In this document: in pieces, positions 1-6,390 of the stretch
How the letters are laid out: the number at the start of each line of letters is the position of its first letter
Position numbering within the stretch: position 1 is the first letter of the stretch
Assembly (NCBI GenBank): GCA_027364875.1
Contig: DAHXON010000027.1
Coordinates: forward strand, 1-37,048
Source: Chloroflexota bacterium
Lineage (GTDB): Bacteria > Chloroflexota > Limnocylindria > Limnocylindrales > CSP1-4
Reading direction: 5' to 3'
DNA length: 37,048 bases
Translations under genes and position numbers: made by a program
Notes under the pieces: model-generated
Told to the model about the DNA's origin: nothing
Databases searched by the model: none
What the model saw: the letters and a program-made list of their open reading frames with translations, nothing else

Positions 1-610
1 CTCCACACCCGTCCCGAGCCCGACGCCCACCCCAACCGCGACGTCGTCGGGGTCGCTGCCGGCGCCCTGGCTCGACGCGGACGTCGGCTCGACAACGCCC
101 GCCGGCTCGGCTTCCAACAGCGGCGGCGTCTTCACCGTGAAGGGTTCCGGTGCCGACATCTGGGGCACTCTCGACCAGTTCCACTACGTCTATCAGCCGG
201 TGACCGGCGACGGATCGATCGTGGCCCGTGTCACGTCCCAGTCGAACACCGGCAGCTCGAACAGCAAAGCCGGTGTCATCTGGAAGGCATCGACCGCCGC
301 CGGCTCGGATTACATCCTGATCGCGGCCGGACCGACCGGAACGGTGAAGGTCCAGTACAACTTCAACACCGATGCCGGCTCGTCCACTTCCTACGCCTTA
401 CCGAACATCTGGATGAAGCTCACACGCACGTCCGCAGGCTTCAGCGCGTATCTGAGCTCCGACGGCGTGAACTGGTCGGCGTTAGCCGTCAACGAGACAG
501 TGACCGGCATCCCGCCGAACGCGACCGTCGGAATCTTCGAGTGCTCACATAAATCGGGAGTGCTCGGCACGGCCACGTTCGACTCACTCAACTTCGCGAC
601 GGCGCCCTAG
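1..610 (+). CDS. C-terminal part of a secreted protein with a DUF1349-like beta-sandwich domain (5' partial)
   Basis: The reading frame is open from base 2, so the ATG at 137 in the ORF track is internal and the gene begins outside the window. The visible part starts with a Pro/Thr/Ser linker (repeats such as PTPTPT), then LPAPWLDADVG and a domain rich in Gly, Ser and aromatic residues (SGADIWGT, FHYVYQPVTGDGSIVARV, KAGVIWK). That pattern is typical of the concanavalin-like DUF1349 domains found at the ends of large secreted glycosidases or surface proteins, where they probably bind glycans. No catalytic part is visible, so the function of the whole protein is unknown. It lies just upstream of an exosortase locus but ends without a sorting tail, so it is probably not a substrate of that system. 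Confidence 0.8.
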   Translation, partial: STPVPSPTPTPTATSSGSLPAPWLDADVGSTTPAGSASNSGGVFTVKGSGADIWGTLDQFHYVYQPVTGDGSIVARVTSQSNTGSSNSKAGVIWKASTAAGSDYILIAAGPTGTVKVQYNFNTDAGSSTSYALPNIWMKLTRTSAGFSAYLSSDGVNWSALAVNETVTGIPPNATVGIFECSHKSGVLGTATFDSLNFATAP

Positions 611-708: not shown

Positions 709-1209
709 ATGAAGAAGCTCGGAATTGCGTCGATCGCGGTCGCCGGCCTATTGCTGATGAGCGCGGTCCCCGCATTGGCCGACAACAGTCCAAACGTTGA
801 CACCATCAAGGTCTGGGCCAGCCTGGACGCACAGAACAACGTCGTGATCAACGGATCCTTCACCGTGGACAACGGTATGCAGGGTCCCGTGAAGCTGGAT
901 CTGCTCGGCAACAAGTCGGGCTGGCATGACACCGGGCTCATGACCACGGTCAACCTGGTCAAGGGTCAGACGCTCTACCAGTTCAGCTTTGACACGAAGT
1001 TCGACGTCCACCACTACAAGGACTACCGCGTCGTCAGCGATGACGGCAAGAAGTCCCGCACCATCGATATCGATGAAGGCGGCTTCCGAGTTCCGGAGGC
1101 GCCATCTTCGAGCATGCTGCTGCTCGGAGCGCTTCCGGTTCTGGGAATCGTGGCCGCGCGCCTCACCGGCGCACGGATTCCACGACCCAGCTGGCGGCGA
1201 GTCGCGTAG
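709..1209 (+). CDS. Small exported protein with PEP-CTERM-like sorting tail
   Basis: This 166-residue protein has an N-terminal signal peptide (MKKLGIASIAVAGLLL, cleavage likely after PALA). A soluble, probably beta-rich middle part follows, containing the charged stretch HHYKDYRVVSDDGKKSR. The last ~40 residues form a tripartite signal: VPEAP at 128-132, a hydrophobic helix (SMLLLGALPVLGIVAARL), and a basic tail ending RRVA. That is the layout of PEP-CTERM substrates. The next gene is an exosortase, so this is very likely its dedicated client, cut near the PEP-like motif and released or attached at the surface. The start is set by a strong Shine-Dalgarno (GGAGGAGG) directly upstream of the ATG. 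The function of the middle part is not recognised. Confidence 0.85.
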   Translation: MKKLGIASIAVAGLLLMSAVPALADNSPNVDTIKVWASLDAQNNVVINGSFTVDNGMQGPVKLDLLGNKSGWHDTGLMTTVNLVKGQTLYQFSFDTKFDVHHYKDYRVVSDDGKKSRTIDIDEGGFRVPEAPSSSMLLLGALPVLGIVAARLTGARIPRPSWRRVA

Positions 1210-1296
1210 CCGATAACGAGAACATCCCAATGGTTGGACGCTCCGTGCGTTGGGACGGCGTACGGAGCGAGCCGACCTCGCGCTCAAGAGGACCCG

Positions 1297-3000
1297 ATGG
1301 AACTGCCAGCGCACAGAAATTCGAAGGTCGCCCGGTCGAGTACGGAATCGTCGCCGGCCGATCCGCCGACGGCGCTGCGGAGCTTCGCAGCCGCGCTCGT
1401 CGAGCGATTCCCGATCCGCGCTACCGCGGTCGTCGCCGCCGTGGCCATCGCCTACAACTACTCGTTGGAGACGCTGGTCCGCGGCCTCGATCTCCAAACG
1501 CCGCTGGCGTATCTCGCGCTCGTGCCGCCCATCGCGGTCCTTCTTGGTGCGGCCAACTTCCGGCTGCAGCCCAACCTGCCCGCCATTCACGACCGGCAGG
1601 TCGACTGGATCGTCGGGCTCCTGCTCATCGGCATCGCGGCTGCTTTCACGGTGCTGCTGCCGTCCGCCTATTCCGCCGAGTACTGGCTCCGCCGCTTTGA
1701 CATGCTCGGCCTGCCGTTCTTTGCCGCGGGCGTGATCTCCCTGGTGTACGGCGTTCGCCGGCTGTGGGCCATGCGCTGGGCCGTCGCGTTCCTGCTGCTC
1801 GCGTGGCCCGATCCGTACGTATCGGCCCTGGCCTCGCTCATCGGTGCTTCGACGGACGCCGCTCTCACGGCCGTCACCGCGACGCTCGTCGTGCTGCCAT
1901 TCGGTCATCCGCTCGGCAACGGCGTGTTCCTGATCGACAACGCCTCCGGCCCGTTCAGTCTGGCCGTGAGCTCGGCCTGCAGTGGCGTCAACAGCCTCGT
2001 CGGCTTCCTGATCGTGGGTGCGGCGCTCAACACGGTATTCCGCGGCGGCCTGCTGCGAAGGCTCGCCTGGCTCGCGACCGGCCTGATCGTCGTCGGCGCG
2101 CTGAACGTGTTTCGGATCGACCTCATCTTCGTGGCGGGCTGGCTCCTCGGCGAACCGTTCGCCATCGACGTGCTACACCCTGTGGCCGGCGTGATCGTCT
2201 TCGGCGTGGGGGCGCTCGCGATGCTCGCGATGGCGCCATTCTTCGGACTCGAGATTCCGAGACCCGAACCAGTGCGCAGAGCCATCACGGACCAGGTCCA
2301 ACACAGAGCAAACATTCGGCCGTCGCACCAGGTCCTTCGTCCCGCGGCCGCCATCGGTGCAAGCCTGCTGCTCGCGATAGGCATGGGTCTTCCGAACTCG
2401 GCATTCGCGAGCTACGACTCGTTGATCAACGCATTTGGCACGCCCACGCTCGGCACCATCGACCCGGCCACAATCTCCGTGACGGGCTGGCAGGCGTCGA
2501 AGCCCAGTGATTTCGGCCAGGCGACGCAGTATTTCGGCCCGAACGGTACGTGGGAGCGGATCGCCTTCGCGGCCGCGGCGCCTCCGCCAAACACGCCCTC
2601 GACGGTCTATCTCGATGTGATCCGGACTGACGATTCCGGGACGCTGGCGGCCTATGGCGTGGAGGCCTGCTACGACTTCCACGGCTTCGCGCAGGTCGAC
2701 TCGGCAACGGCGGACGTAGGGGCGGGCGTGGTCGCGAAGGTTGCCAGCTACCGAAGCCCGATCGGGGGCACGGATTGGTCGATCCTGTGGTGGGAGTGGC
2801 CCTACAACGCCGGCGGCCAAACGAGATTCGAGCGCATCGTCCTGCTCGCCCCACTCGCCGAGGCGGACCAGCCGGGGGGCGTGACCACGACCGAGACATT
2901 TGCCGCGAGCCGAACGACCCTGATCGGTCTCGCCCGGGCCGTCACAGCCGAAGCGATTCGGTACCTCGCGCCGACTCCCGACCCGGCGAGCCAGGAGTAG
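1297..3000 (+). CDS. Exosortase with fused C-terminal EpsI-like domain
   Basis: An integral membrane transpeptidase-like protease that processes PEP-CTERM-type proteins. About eight hydrophobic segments cover residues ~30-330. The family motifs are visible in order: SSACSG with the predicted nucleophile Cys228, NVFRIDL with Arg273, and VLHP with His294. From about residue 350 a second export-type hydrophobic segment leads to an extracytoplasmic domain of ~190 residues (VTGWQASKPSDF, YLDVIRTDD, ACYDFHGF, WWEWPY). It resembles the EpsI/DUF3485 domain often fused to or encoded beside exosortases; that assignment is weaker. The track starts at a TTG (1234), but the ATG at 1297 follows AAGAGGA at good spacing and gives a normal N-terminus of 567 residues. 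The next gene starts 7 bases after its stop. Confidence 0.88.
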   Translation: MELPAHRNSKVARSSTESSPADPPTALRSFAAALVERFPIRATAVVAAVAIAYNYSLETLVRGLDLQTPLAYLALVPPIAVLLGAANFRLQPNLPAIHDRQVDWIVGLLLIGIAAAFTVLLPSAYSAEYWLRRFDMLGLPFFAAGVISLVYGVRRLWAMRWAVAFLLLAWPDPYVSALASLIGASTDAALTAVTATLVVLPFGHPLGNGVFLIDNASGPFSLAVSSACSGVNSLVGFLIVGAALNTVFRGGLLRRLAWLATGLIVVGALNVFRIDLIFVAGWLLGEPFAIDVLHPVAGVIVFGVGALAMLAMAPFFGLEIPRPEPVRRAITDQVQHRANIRPSHQVLRPAAAIGASLLLAIGMGLPNSAFASYDSLINAFGTPTLGTIDPATISVTGWQASKPSDFGQATQYFGPNGTWERIAFAAAAPPPNTPSTVYLDVIRTDDSGTLAAYGVEACYDFHGFAQVDSATADVGAGVVAKVASYRSPIGGTDWSILWWEWPYNAGGQTRFERIVLLAPLAEADQPGGVTTTETFAASRTTLIGLARAVTAEAIRYLAPTPDPASQE

Positions 3001-3007
3001 ACCAGCC

Positions 3008-4420
3008 ATGACTCCAACTCTGACGACCGCCAATGTGGGGCTCGAACCCTGGGCCGACGAATCCGCCTCGCGGACCTTGACCCGGCCGCAGCAGGTCGCG
3101 GGCCTGGGCGTCGCCGCCGCCATGTTGGTCTCGCTGCTGGTGTGGCCGCTCGCGACGGGCATTCTCCTGATCGCCGCGGCCACCTTGGCCTATCTGCTCG
3201 CGCTCATCTACCGGCTCATGTCCTTCTGGCTCGCGATCCGGCGGCCGGAGCTGATCCACGTAACGGACGAAGAGGCGCGGGCCGTGCCCGTCCGCCGTTT
3301 GCCGGTCTACACGGTCCTCGTGCCGGCCTATCGCGAGCCGTCGGTGATTGCCCAGCTGATCGATCGGCTGCGGGCGATGGAGTATCCCAGGAGCCGGCTC
3401 GACATCCGCCTCCTGCTCGAAGAGGACGATGAGGAGACGATCGCGGCGGCCCGTGCCGTTCAGATGGGCCCCGAGTTCACGGTCGTGATCGTTCCCCACG
3501 GCATCCCCAAGACGAAACCGAAGGCCTGCAACTATGGCCTCGTCGGGGCGCGAGGAGAGATCGTCACCGTCTACGACGCGGAGGACCGCCCCGACCCGCT
3601 GCAGCTTCGGCGGGCCGTTGTGGCGTTCGAGCGGGCGGACCCCTCGGTCGCCTGTCTGCAGGCGAAGCTTTCCTACTACAACGCGGGCCAGAACATGCTC
3701 ACGCGCTGGTTCACGATCGAATACGGCATGTGGTTCTCGAGCCTCCTTCCGGGTCTGGTTTCGCAGCGGGGCCCGTTGCCGCTCGGCGGGACTTCCAACC
3801 ACTTTCGAGCCGACATACTTCGCCAGGTTCGAGGCTGGGATCCCTACAACGTGACCGAGGACGCGGATCTCGGCATCCGTCTGGCCCGGCGGGGATTTCA
3901 GACGCGCGTGCTCGACAGTACGACCCTCGAAGAGGCGAACAGCGACGTCATCAACTGGATCAAGCAGCGATCGCGCTGGTACAAGGGTTACATGCAGACG
4001 TGGCTCGTCCACGCCCGACATCCCCGCACGCTTCGGCGCGAGCTGGGCTGGCGCGGCTTCCTGGGCTTCAACCTGTTCATTGCGGGCACGCCATTGCTCG
4101 CGCTCGTGAACCCGCTGTTCTGGGCGATGACCGCGCTCTGGTTCCTCGTCCACCCGCCGGTCGTGCTGCAGCTGTTCCCGGCGTGGCTCTACTACCTGGG
4201 TCTGTTCGTGATGATCGTCGGAAACATGTCGCTCTTCTACAGCTGGCTCGTGAGCGCGAGGCTCGTTGGCTGCCGCGATCTGGTCGTCGCGTCTCTGCTC
4301 GTGCCCATCTACTGGGCACTCATGTCATTGGCGGTCACCAAGGCGGTCGTTCAGCTCGTTTCGGCTCCGTCGTTCTGGGAGAAGACCGTTCACGGACTCG
4401 ACAAGCCCGAGACGGTCTAG
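3008..4420 (+). CDS. Family 2 processive glycosyltransferase (cellulose synthase-like)
   Basis: A 470-residue membrane glycosyltransferase. Two N-terminal membrane helices precede a GT-A domain beginning TVLVPAYREPSVI. Nucleotide-sugar and metal binding is marked by YDAEDRPD, the acceptor region by TEDADLGIRLARRGF, and processivity by the QRSRW signature. Three or four membrane helices follow. The family makes beta-linked polysaccharides at the cytoplasmic face and passes them through its own membrane channel; the sugar cannot be read from sequence. It is almost certainly co-transcribed with the exosortase (7-base gap). Exosortase genes in other bacteria usually sit in exopolysaccharide loci, so this enzyme may make the matrix in which the sorted protein is retained. 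Confidence 0.88.
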   Translation: MTPTLTTANVGLEPWADESASRTLTRPQQVAGLGVAAAMLVSLLVWPLATGILLIAAATLAYLLALIYRLMSFWLAIRRPELIHVTDEEARAVPVRRLPVYTVLVPAYREPSVIAQLIDRLRAMEYPRSRLDIRLLLEEDDEETIAAARAVQMGPEFTVVIVPHGIPKTKPKACNYGLVGARGEIVTVYDAEDRPDPLQLRRAVVAFERADPSVACLQAKLSYYNAGQNMLTRWFTIEYGMWFSSLLPGLVSQRGPLPLGGTSNHFRADILRQVRGWDPYNVTEDADLGIRLARRGFQTRVLDSTTLEEANSDVINWIKQRSRWYKGYMQTWLVHARHPRTLRRELGWRGFLGFNLFIAGTPLLALVNPLFWAMTALWFLVHPPVVLQLFPAWLYYLGLFVMIVGNMSLFYSWLVSARLVGCRDLVVASLLVPIYWALMSLAVTKAVVQLVSAPSFWEKTVHGLDKPETV

Positions 4421-4822: not shown

Positions 4823-5025
4823 GGCCCACCGGATGGATCGGACGGCGGCGTGCGCGGCTGCGTCGTCCCGTCCTGCGCCCGGCCCAAGAAACGCCCGATC
4901 CGACCGGCCGCGATCGGAGTCTTATCCGCAGGTACCGGCCCCGACAACGGCGAACCCAGAAACGTCGCCGAATTCCGGGCCACGCTGCTTGACAAAAATG
5001 AAGCTTCTTCTAAAGGAGCATGCCG

Positions 5026-6390
5026 ATGAATCGCCGCTCCGGCTTAGTCCTTGCAGCCATGGCGCTCTGTGTCGCGGCTTGCGGCTCGGGGTCGAGCCAG
5101 GCCACGTCCGCCAGCAGCTTCAGCACCGCATCGGTCGGAAAGGCTTTCGTCTCGGCCCTCGCGCGTGGTGACTTCGCGGCCGCCGAAGGCATGGAGGACG
5201 GGCAGATGCGTGCGGCCGCCCCGGCCGCCCACCTCTCGTCGATCTGGCAGGGTTTCGTCCGCCAGTACGGGACATTCGACTCGGTCGGGGCCGTCGCTAC
5301 CTCGTCCGACCCGCCCAACACGATCGCGATCGTCTCGACCCAGTTCGCCAGGTACCTTGTCGGCCTGAGAGTCACAGTTGACCGTTCCGGTGAGGTGGCA
5401 GGGCTGTTCGTCAACAGCGCCGTCGCCGCTGGCCCCTCTGCCTCCGGCTCCATCCCACCCGCCTCGTACGTCCGACCCGGCTCGTTCACGGAGACGGACG
5501 TGACCGTCGGCGCCTCCCCATGGGCCCTGCCCGGCACGCTCACGATGCCGACCGGCCCCGGTCCGTTCCCGGCGGTGGTGCTCGTGGCCGGCTCCGGACC
5601 CGCGGACCGCAACGAGAGCTATGGGCCGAACGCGCCGTTCCGTGACCTCGCCTGGGGCCTGGTCTCGAACGGCATCGCGGTCCTGCGCTACGACAAGCGC
5701 ACCCTGGTCTACGCCAGGCAAATAGCCGCCGATGAGTCGAGCCTGACAGTTCGCCAGGAGACCACCGACGACGCCGTGGCCGCGATCGCCCTGCTGCGCG
5801 GAACCGCGAAAGTGGATCCGGCGCGCGTCTTTCTCGTCGGGCATAGCCTCGGTGCATACCTGGCTCCGCGCATTGCGGCCCAGATCCCGGGGCAGCTTCG
5901 AGGACTCGTGCTGCTCGAGGCGCCGAGCACCCCCTTGCCGGAACTGATCCTGGCCCAGGAGCGGTATCTGGCCTCGCTGCAGAGTCCGGGGCCCAGTGCC
6001 AGCGACCAGTTGACGACGCTCGCGGCAGAGGTGGCGCTGGCCGAGTCGGCCTCTTTGAGCCCTTCCACACCGGCGTCCGAGCTCCCGCTCGGGATCCCGG
6101 CCTCTTACTGGCTCGACCTTCGCTCATATGACCCGTTGACGACGGCCGCCGAGCTGGATCTCCCCATGTTGTTCTCACAGGGCGGCCGTGACTATCAGGT
6201 GCCCCCAAGCGAGCTGCAGGGTTGGGAGCACGCGCTCACGGACCGGTCGAACGTCACGTTCAAGACGTACCCATCCATGGACCATCTGCTGCTCGACGGC
6301 AGCGGACCCGCCACTCCCGCCGAGTACAGCATCCCAGGGCACGTCGACCCCCAACTCGTGGCCGACATCGCAGGCTGGATCAACCGGTAG
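5026..6390 (+). CDS. Lipoprotein alpha/beta hydrolase with N-terminal DUF3887-like domain
   Basis: The protein starts with a lipoprotein signal (RRSGLVLAAMALCVAAC), lipidated at the Cys of VAAC, so it should be anchored outside the membrane. Residues ~30-145 look like the small alpha+beta domain (DUF3887-like, FVSALARGDFAAAEG) that often precedes such hydrolases. The rest is a serine hydrolase: oxyanion region LVAGSGPADRN, nucleophile elbow GHSLG with Ser274, acid in QGGRDYQVP, and His in MDHLLLDG. The substrate is unknown; relatives are general esterases or peptidases. The track uses the ATG at 5020, but AAAGGAG ends only one base before it. The second ATG at 5026 has correct spacing and is chosen here. 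A perfect TTGACA lies at 4989-4994, but no convincing -10 follows. Confidence 0.85.
   Translation: MNRRSGLVLAAMALCVAACGSGSSQATSASSFSTASVGKAFVSALARGDFAAAEGMEDGQMRAAAPAAHLSSIWQGFVRQYGTFDSVGAVATSSDPPNTIAIVSTQFARYLVGLRVTVDRSGEVAGLFVNSAVAAGPSASGSIPPASYVRPGSFTETDVTVGASPWALPGTLTMPTGPGPFPAVVLVAGSGPADRNESYGPNAPFRDLAWGLVSNGIAVLRYDKRTLVYARQIAADESSLTVRQETTDDAVAAIALLRGTAKVDPARVFLVGHSLGAYLAPRIAAQIPGQLRGLVLLEAPSTPLPELILAQERYLASLQSPGPSASDQLTTLAAEVALAESASLSPSTPASELPLGIPASYWLDLRSYDPLTTAAELDLPMLFSQGGRDYQVPPSELQGWEHALTDRSNVTFKTYPSMDHLLLDGSGPATPAEYSIPGHVDPQLVADIAGWINR

Follow-up and report, generated by a model that had tools for sequence, protein, structure and literature searches.

A candidate compact exosortase system with one dedicated client in a Chloroflexota bacterium

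Client, exosortase and glycosyltransferase at positions 709–4420

In this study, a 37,048-nucleotide stretch of DNA from a Chloroflexota bacterium (contig DAHXON010000027.1, positions 1 to 37,048; hereafter the window) was analyzed for an exosortase locus at positions 709–4420. The best reading of the locus is a small, working exosortase system that serves a single dedicated client, and a probability of about 0.78 was assigned to this reading from sequence comparison. The initial annotation had placed a client, an exosortase and a family 2 glycosyltransferase (GT2) in a row, and three open reading frames (ORFs) were found there at the same coordinates, all on the + strand and with a GC content at third codon positions (GC3) of 0.81–0.86. 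Family membership, conservation of catalytic residues, pairing of client and enzyme, conservation of the tail and linkage to the glycosyltransferase (GT) were established by comparison.

The client gene (709..1209, + strand) encodes a predicted secreted protein of 166 aa, as judged from its sequence, hydropathy, an AlphaFold2 (AF2) model and 9 homologues. Its ATG is directly preceded by GGAGGAGG, a strong ribosome-binding site. Sequence and hydropathy indicate a signal-peptide helix at about residues 1–24. Residues 32–120 were predicted to form a beta-sandwich (AF2 model, predicted local distance difference test (pLDDT) 72.5), and sequence and fold searches of the PDB yielded nothing convincing beyond this sandwich (best E 0.014). 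The C-terminal tail was FRVPEAPSSSMLLLGALPVLGIVAARLTGARIPRPSWRRVA. In the sequence and the AF2 model it consists of VPEAP at residues 128–132, a helix at residues 134–153 and an Arg-rich basic end. The segment coding for this sorting tail (1090..1206, + strand) was located by DNA pattern sites and by a match to a tail hidden Markov model (HMM). RVPEAP was invariant across the 9 homologous clients, found in six other genomes of the same genus. The Pro/Glu motif, helix and basic residues form the C-terminal architecture of the PEP-CTERM type, and in this respect, though not by HMM match, the client had rightly been called PEP-CTERM-like. The residues before the motif were DEGGF in the window client and DECGF in its relatives. 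Since the window client lacks this Cys, a cysteine-based tail signal like that of MYXO-CTERM is not required here.

The exosortase gene (1297..3000, + strand) encodes 567 aa from ATG 1297. The ORF is open from TTG 1234; ATG 1297, preceded by AAGAGGA, was the preferred start, and with it the previously proposed catalytic set Cys228/Arg273/His294 was numbered exactly. The protein matched PF09721 with 62.9 bits (cut-off 25.7; E 4e-17), as did all 26 homologues, and the TIGR04178 signature with 41.3 bits (cut-off 23). Exosortases share six invariant residues, in Cys-x-Gly, Asn-x-x-Arg and His-x-x-x-Gly (Haft 2006, PMC1569441). All six were present in the window exosortase (C228-G230, N270-R273, H294-G298). 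They were invariant in the 26 homologues except for the Asn, conserved at at least 90%; the catalytic Cys, Arg and His were found in 26/26. About 9–10 long hydrophobic helices were predicted over residues 40–375 in the AF2 model, which would accommodate the eight or more transmembrane (TM) helices expected of an exosortase.

Assignment to an exosortase subfamily by HMM had been proposed as a check, and it succeeded at the level of the family and not of a named subfamily. The window exosortase was below the cut-off of TIGR02602 and of every named NCBIfam exosortase subfamily, among them XrtA, XrtD, XrtV, XrtW, XrtT, XrtH, XrtM, XrtX, XrtG, XrtO and cyanoexosortase C; the best score was for XrtA (49.5 vs 208). 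Six further homologues likewise reached no named NCBIfam cut-off. Sequence and fold searches of the PDB found no solved structure similar to the exosortase. A weak likeness of its model to LpqN-like folds was noted and not used.

The exosortase core is followed by a C-terminal domain (about residues 345–567 including the preceding helix; 2329..3000, + strand) that the initial annotation had missed. It was alpha/beta in the AF2 model and carried an invariant C458-Y459-x-F461-H462. In hhalign comparisons with separate EpsI proteins of Chloroflexota it gave E values of 4e-5 and 1.5e-4 (single comparison, probability 51–70%), with the C458-Y-x-F-H motif paired to CYxxxGW of EpsI; the exosortase core, used as a negative control, gave E 0.39. 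DUF3485 was below the Pfam threshold and was seen in only 1 of 26 members (E 0.082). The results suggested that the domain is probably homologous to EpsI/DUF3485 and fused rather than separate. Fusions of EpsH and EpsI were already reported in 2006 (PMC1569441).

The GT2 gene (3008..4420, + strand; 470 aa) starts 8 bases past the end of the exosortase ORF. The protein matched PF13641 (1.4e-25) and PF13632 (5.8e-23), and it has TM helices at both ends. The motifs D190-A-E-D193, T283-E-D285 and Q320-R321-S-R323-W324 correspond to those of processive membrane GT2 enzymes of the HAS, CesA and PgaC kind (D..D, TED, Q(Q/R)xRW, TM helices). The flanking membrane helices were conserved and the motifs invariant in 16 GTs of the module. 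No equivalog cut-off of the NCBIfam models was reached. The sequence matches in the PDB were a membrane GT2 (the best), which we take to be archaeal, and hyaluronan synthase. The protein had been described as a processive polysaccharide synthase; the synthase motifs are present, and a polysaccharide would be the product that they suggest.

Pairing and distribution of the module

The distribution of the three genes was investigated in 151 genomes, the window genome and 150 relatives. The exosortase was found in 10 of them, comprising 7 of the 21 genus members and three others of the family. Full-length clients (E 1e-76 or better) occurred in the same 7 genus members; client and exosortase were absent together from the other 14 (14/14), where the remaining client matches were short (8e-6 or worse). 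The GT was found in the same 7 genomes and the three family members and was absent from the other 14 of the genus. Each exosortase-bearing genus member had 1–2 homologous clients, in tandem in three members. In the three family-level relatives the client body was a different protein, and the tail PE[AV]P-helix-Arg was present in 3/3. The gene order of the module was kept in nine relatives.

A search for other VPEAP-helix-Arg tails had also been suggested. The genome of the window, 3.8 Mb in size and 90% complete in 208 contigs, holds one exosortase, and only the tail of the client was found in it. Only one of 11 VPEAP-type DNA sites, that of the client, continued into a C-terminal helix and basic residues, the count of sites being uninformative by itself because a control pattern yielded more matches. 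The client was also the sole strong match of the tail HMM (E 2.3e-24; next 0.96). A broader tail profile gave a best E of 0.009 in this genome and misses the client too, so that a second, divergent client is possible. More tails were found elsewhere. G263 (L162, L163, L204-L220), a genome of the same phylum and another family with an expanded exosortase system, has two long exosortases. At E 0.05 it gave 24 tail matches, and about 20 of these exceed the level in exosortase-minus genomes. All 17 tails read out ran from a PExP-like motif, with one-letter departures in 2–3 of them, through a helix to basic residues and the stop. These roughly 20 proteins are scattered, which supports recognition of the tail.

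The host had been suspected to be a Chloroflexota or actinobacterium-like lineage. Records of same-genus genomes are titled as Chloroflexi metagenome-assembled genomes (MAGs), mostly with 'fen' isolate names, in agreement with the first of these; the host is described as soil/peat. The same exosortase was found in Actinomycetota (including Acidimicrobiales and strain IMCC26207) and in Dormibacterota MAGs. Proteins with PF09721 were present in 30 of 400 genomes drawn from Chloroflexota; they included short exosortases, several beside a separate DUF3485/EpsI gene, and long ones of at least 550 aa. A tree was built from 34 long (fused) and 10 short forms, some of the short-form cores being roughly cut; one branch separated the long forms from the rest (93/84; present in 95% of bootstrap trees).

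The 34 long-form loci came from Chloroflexota, Dormibacterota and Actinomycetota. Gene order was kept between these phylum-level groups; the body of the client was exchanged and the tail retained. A protein with a [PS]ExP-helix-basic tail lay directly upstream of the exosortase in 26 of the 34; in two of the other 8, the sequence upstream is shorter than 300 bases. A single spurious tail was found in 110 kb of control loci. By hand count, a homologous GT was near the exosortase in 28/34. The tail motif drifts from VPEAP, VPEVP and TPEAP to VSESP and VSEAP in Actinomycetota, and in a broad tail alignment only the Glu, a Pro at the second position after it and one Arg were invariant. A chance arrangement was excluded because of the E value for PF09721, the order kept in nine relatives and the 26/34 adjacency set against one spurious tail.

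The setting had been called uncommon and the system one of very few parts. The small number of parts was supported by the three-gene module; restriction to one lineage was not. The initial observation and the larger part of its interpretation were upheld. By title and abstract, no paper in an open library joining exosortases with Chloroflexi or Acidimicrobiia described such a system, and an earlier mention in the key 2012 exosortase paper is possible. Three records titled 'MAG: Bifidobacterium breve' (L044, L047, L048) have loci closely resembling that of IMCC26207, an unrelated actinobacterium, and are probably mislabelled bins; a Melainabacteria record title among the exosortase-bearing records also looks wrong.

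Proposed mechanism and alternatives

From its sequence and family, the client would be exported by Sec and would stay membrane-bound through its C-terminal helix. The exosortase would recognise VPEAP on the external side of the membrane, and Cys228, together with Arg273 and His294, would cut the client at the PEAP motif and hand the freed client to an acceptor nucleophile. Judging from gene context, the product of the GT2 is probably a surface glycan or glycolipid that anchors the client or that the client holds at the surface. The fused EpsI-like domain probably aids acceptor or client handling outside the cell, on a speculative view. With no outer-membrane marker found, the product would remain on a single-membrane surface or within the cell wall. 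Omp85 (PF01103) was absent from 20/20 genomes (that of the window and 19 other exosortase-bearing ones), an indirect result given that these are draft MAGs; seven diderm genomes, including E. coli, Caulobacter and Thermus, were positive controls. An outer membrane in the host is therefore unlikely.

Several observations weigh against this reading of the locus. The window client gave no match to TIGR02595/PF07589 at E<=1 and reached no other CTERM model, and one related client reached 12.3 bits against the PEP-CTERM HMM (cut-off 16). Absences of the module are partly due to incomplete MAGs. Gain or loss of a single operon as a unit may explain the co-occurrence within one genus. GT homologues occur without an exosortase in three genomes (G043:C75, G112:C38 and G118:C44; L171-L173; 48–50% identity) and 6 of the 34 exosortases have no GT nearby, so that a coupling between glycan and client is put forward only as an inference. 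To judge from those three genomes, a homologue of the module GT2 can act on its own.

Three accounts of what follows the cut were considered. In the first, the exosortase acts only as a protease: it would cut and release the client without a covalent glycan link, and the client would bind the polysaccharide exported by the GT2 non-covalently. HAS-like synthases export their own product, which speaks for this account, as does the GT found without an exosortase in three genomes. A PEP-CTERM protein of Aquincola moves exopolysaccharide from the soluble to the bound state, with a covalent link not demonstrated (PMC9850573). Against it, the pairing of exosortase and GT is strongly conserved (28/34), and transfer is favoured by the sortase-like triad and by the precedent of archaeosortases, whose substrates are lipid-anchored (PMC7157517). 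This account is held at clearly less than even odds.

The second account is covalent coupling, in which a monoderm exosortase subfamily would link a single, dedicated secreted protein to what the partner GT2 makes, be it a glycan or a glycolipid, forming a surface conjugate, and the fused EpsI-like domain would unite cutting and acceptor handling. It is put forward tentatively and, taken as a whole, is rather unlikely. The third account is lipid anchoring like that by archaeosortase A, in which the client, once cut, would be attached to a lipid or glycolipid of the membrane and the GT2 would make the sugar head group of that glycolipid and no polymer. The best PDB match of the GT2, presumably an archaeal membrane GT2, agrees with it. 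The GT2 nevertheless retains the D..D, TED and QxxRW of a processive synthase and also matches hyaluronan synthase, and the module is without a lipid-synthesis gene. In Haloferax, whose cells have a single membrane, a protein processed by ArtA carries a lipid anchor at its C-terminus (PMC7157517). In Methanosarcina, a lipid-synthesis gene adjoins artA (PMC7157517), a place taken by the GT here. This account, too, is doubtful.

The client could also be a substrate of a sortase, with the exosortase as a bystander. The window genome encodes a sortase-domain protein, the tails physically resemble LPXTG tails, some related tails weakly match LPXTG models, and some Actinomycetota have a sortase 1–2 kb from a VPEAP-type client. 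The window client itself, however, ends in a VPEAP tail, with no LPXTG-like motif and no match to an LPXTG model. Sortases also occur in genus members without exosortase and client, whereas the exosortase adjoins the client and tracks it exactly, and this explanation is very improbable. A gene with a sortase domain was found about 1–2 kb from a PExP-tailed protein in three genomes of Actinomycetota, with sortase and exosortase systems apparently side by side (G498:C6:218017-218379, upstream of L040; G497:C17:44046-44405, near L036; G501:C130:117734-117979). A last alternative takes the 'exosortase' for a polytopic membrane protein without relation to the family and the tail for a simple C-terminal anchor in the membrane, as the scores below the cut-offs of TIGR02602 and each named subfamily and the lack of a similar solved structure might suggest. 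It has next to no likelihood given PF09721 at 4e-17, TIGR04178 over its cut-off, all six family-invariant residues including the invariant triad, and the pairing with [PS]ExP tails at 26/34 loci.

Neighbouring genes, known systems and significance

The 3' end of a gene for a lectin-like DUF1349 surface protein (2..610, + strand; E 2.9e-4, below the cut-off), cut by the contig edge, lies directly upstream of the client, as in two other genus members. At L023:3-4469 the DUF1349 surface protein also has PKD and Ig-like domains. It is possibly a further part or surface partner of the module. An alpha/beta hydrolase is encoded at 5020–6390, with EstD (NF041096) at 369.5 bits, below the cut-off of 600, and a DUF3887-like N-terminal part. 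The PHROGs search gave no match, and the promoter and terminator scan gave nothing beyond chance level.

The system was compared with known ones. Like the EpsH/XrtA type (TIGR02602, TIGR03109, PF09721), it has a polytopic core with CxG, NxxR and HxxxG, clients with motif, helix and basic residues, a glycan-synthesis neighbour and a probable EpsI domain. It differs in that the members tested scored 36–67 bits for XrtA (cut-off 208), the host is apparently without an outer membrane, clients are one or few, the motif is PExP or SExP and not PEP, and a large exopolysaccharide (EPS) locus is not in view. XrtD and XrtW (TIGR04152, NF038142; about 490 aa) are likewise long, with a C-terminal extension past the core, whereas the scores here were 21–50 bits (cut-offs 400–425). 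XrtG and its GT (TIGR03110/TIGR03111) also pair an exosortase-family protein with a GT2 in monoderm bacteria, but the scores here were 13.6 bits vs 102.75 for XrtG and 32 vs 364 for the GT model, and the XrtG model covers 187 aa without an EpsI domain. The XrtP-associated glycosyltransferase (NF053846) is another GT2 paired with an exosortase (33 bits here, cut-off 520). Archaeosortase A of Haloferax volcanii shares the superfamily, a single-membrane host and a tripartite C-terminal signal, and differs in its PGF motif and in lipid-making partner genes instead of a GT2 (PMC7157517). On this sequence comparison, the exosortase represents an unnamed, probably EpsI-fused, mostly few-client subfamily of apparently monoderm phyla, a known kind of system and not a categorically new one.

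In 2006, PEP-CTERM/exosortase systems were proposed to accompany an outer membrane (Haft 2006). An EpsI-linked, PEP-CTERM-like system in phyla apparently without one is contrary to that proposal. Names have since been given to Gram-positive relatives of exosortases, such as that of the XrtG model, so that the setting, though uncommon, has precedents. The acceptor of bacterial exosortase clients is an open question, hard to approach when a genome encodes clients by the dozen within large exopolysaccharide loci. In the present locus the pathway is perhaps whole in three genes, with one client and one GT. Client processing, the acceptor and the role of EpsI would be directly testable, which makes the locus useful as a minimal test system.

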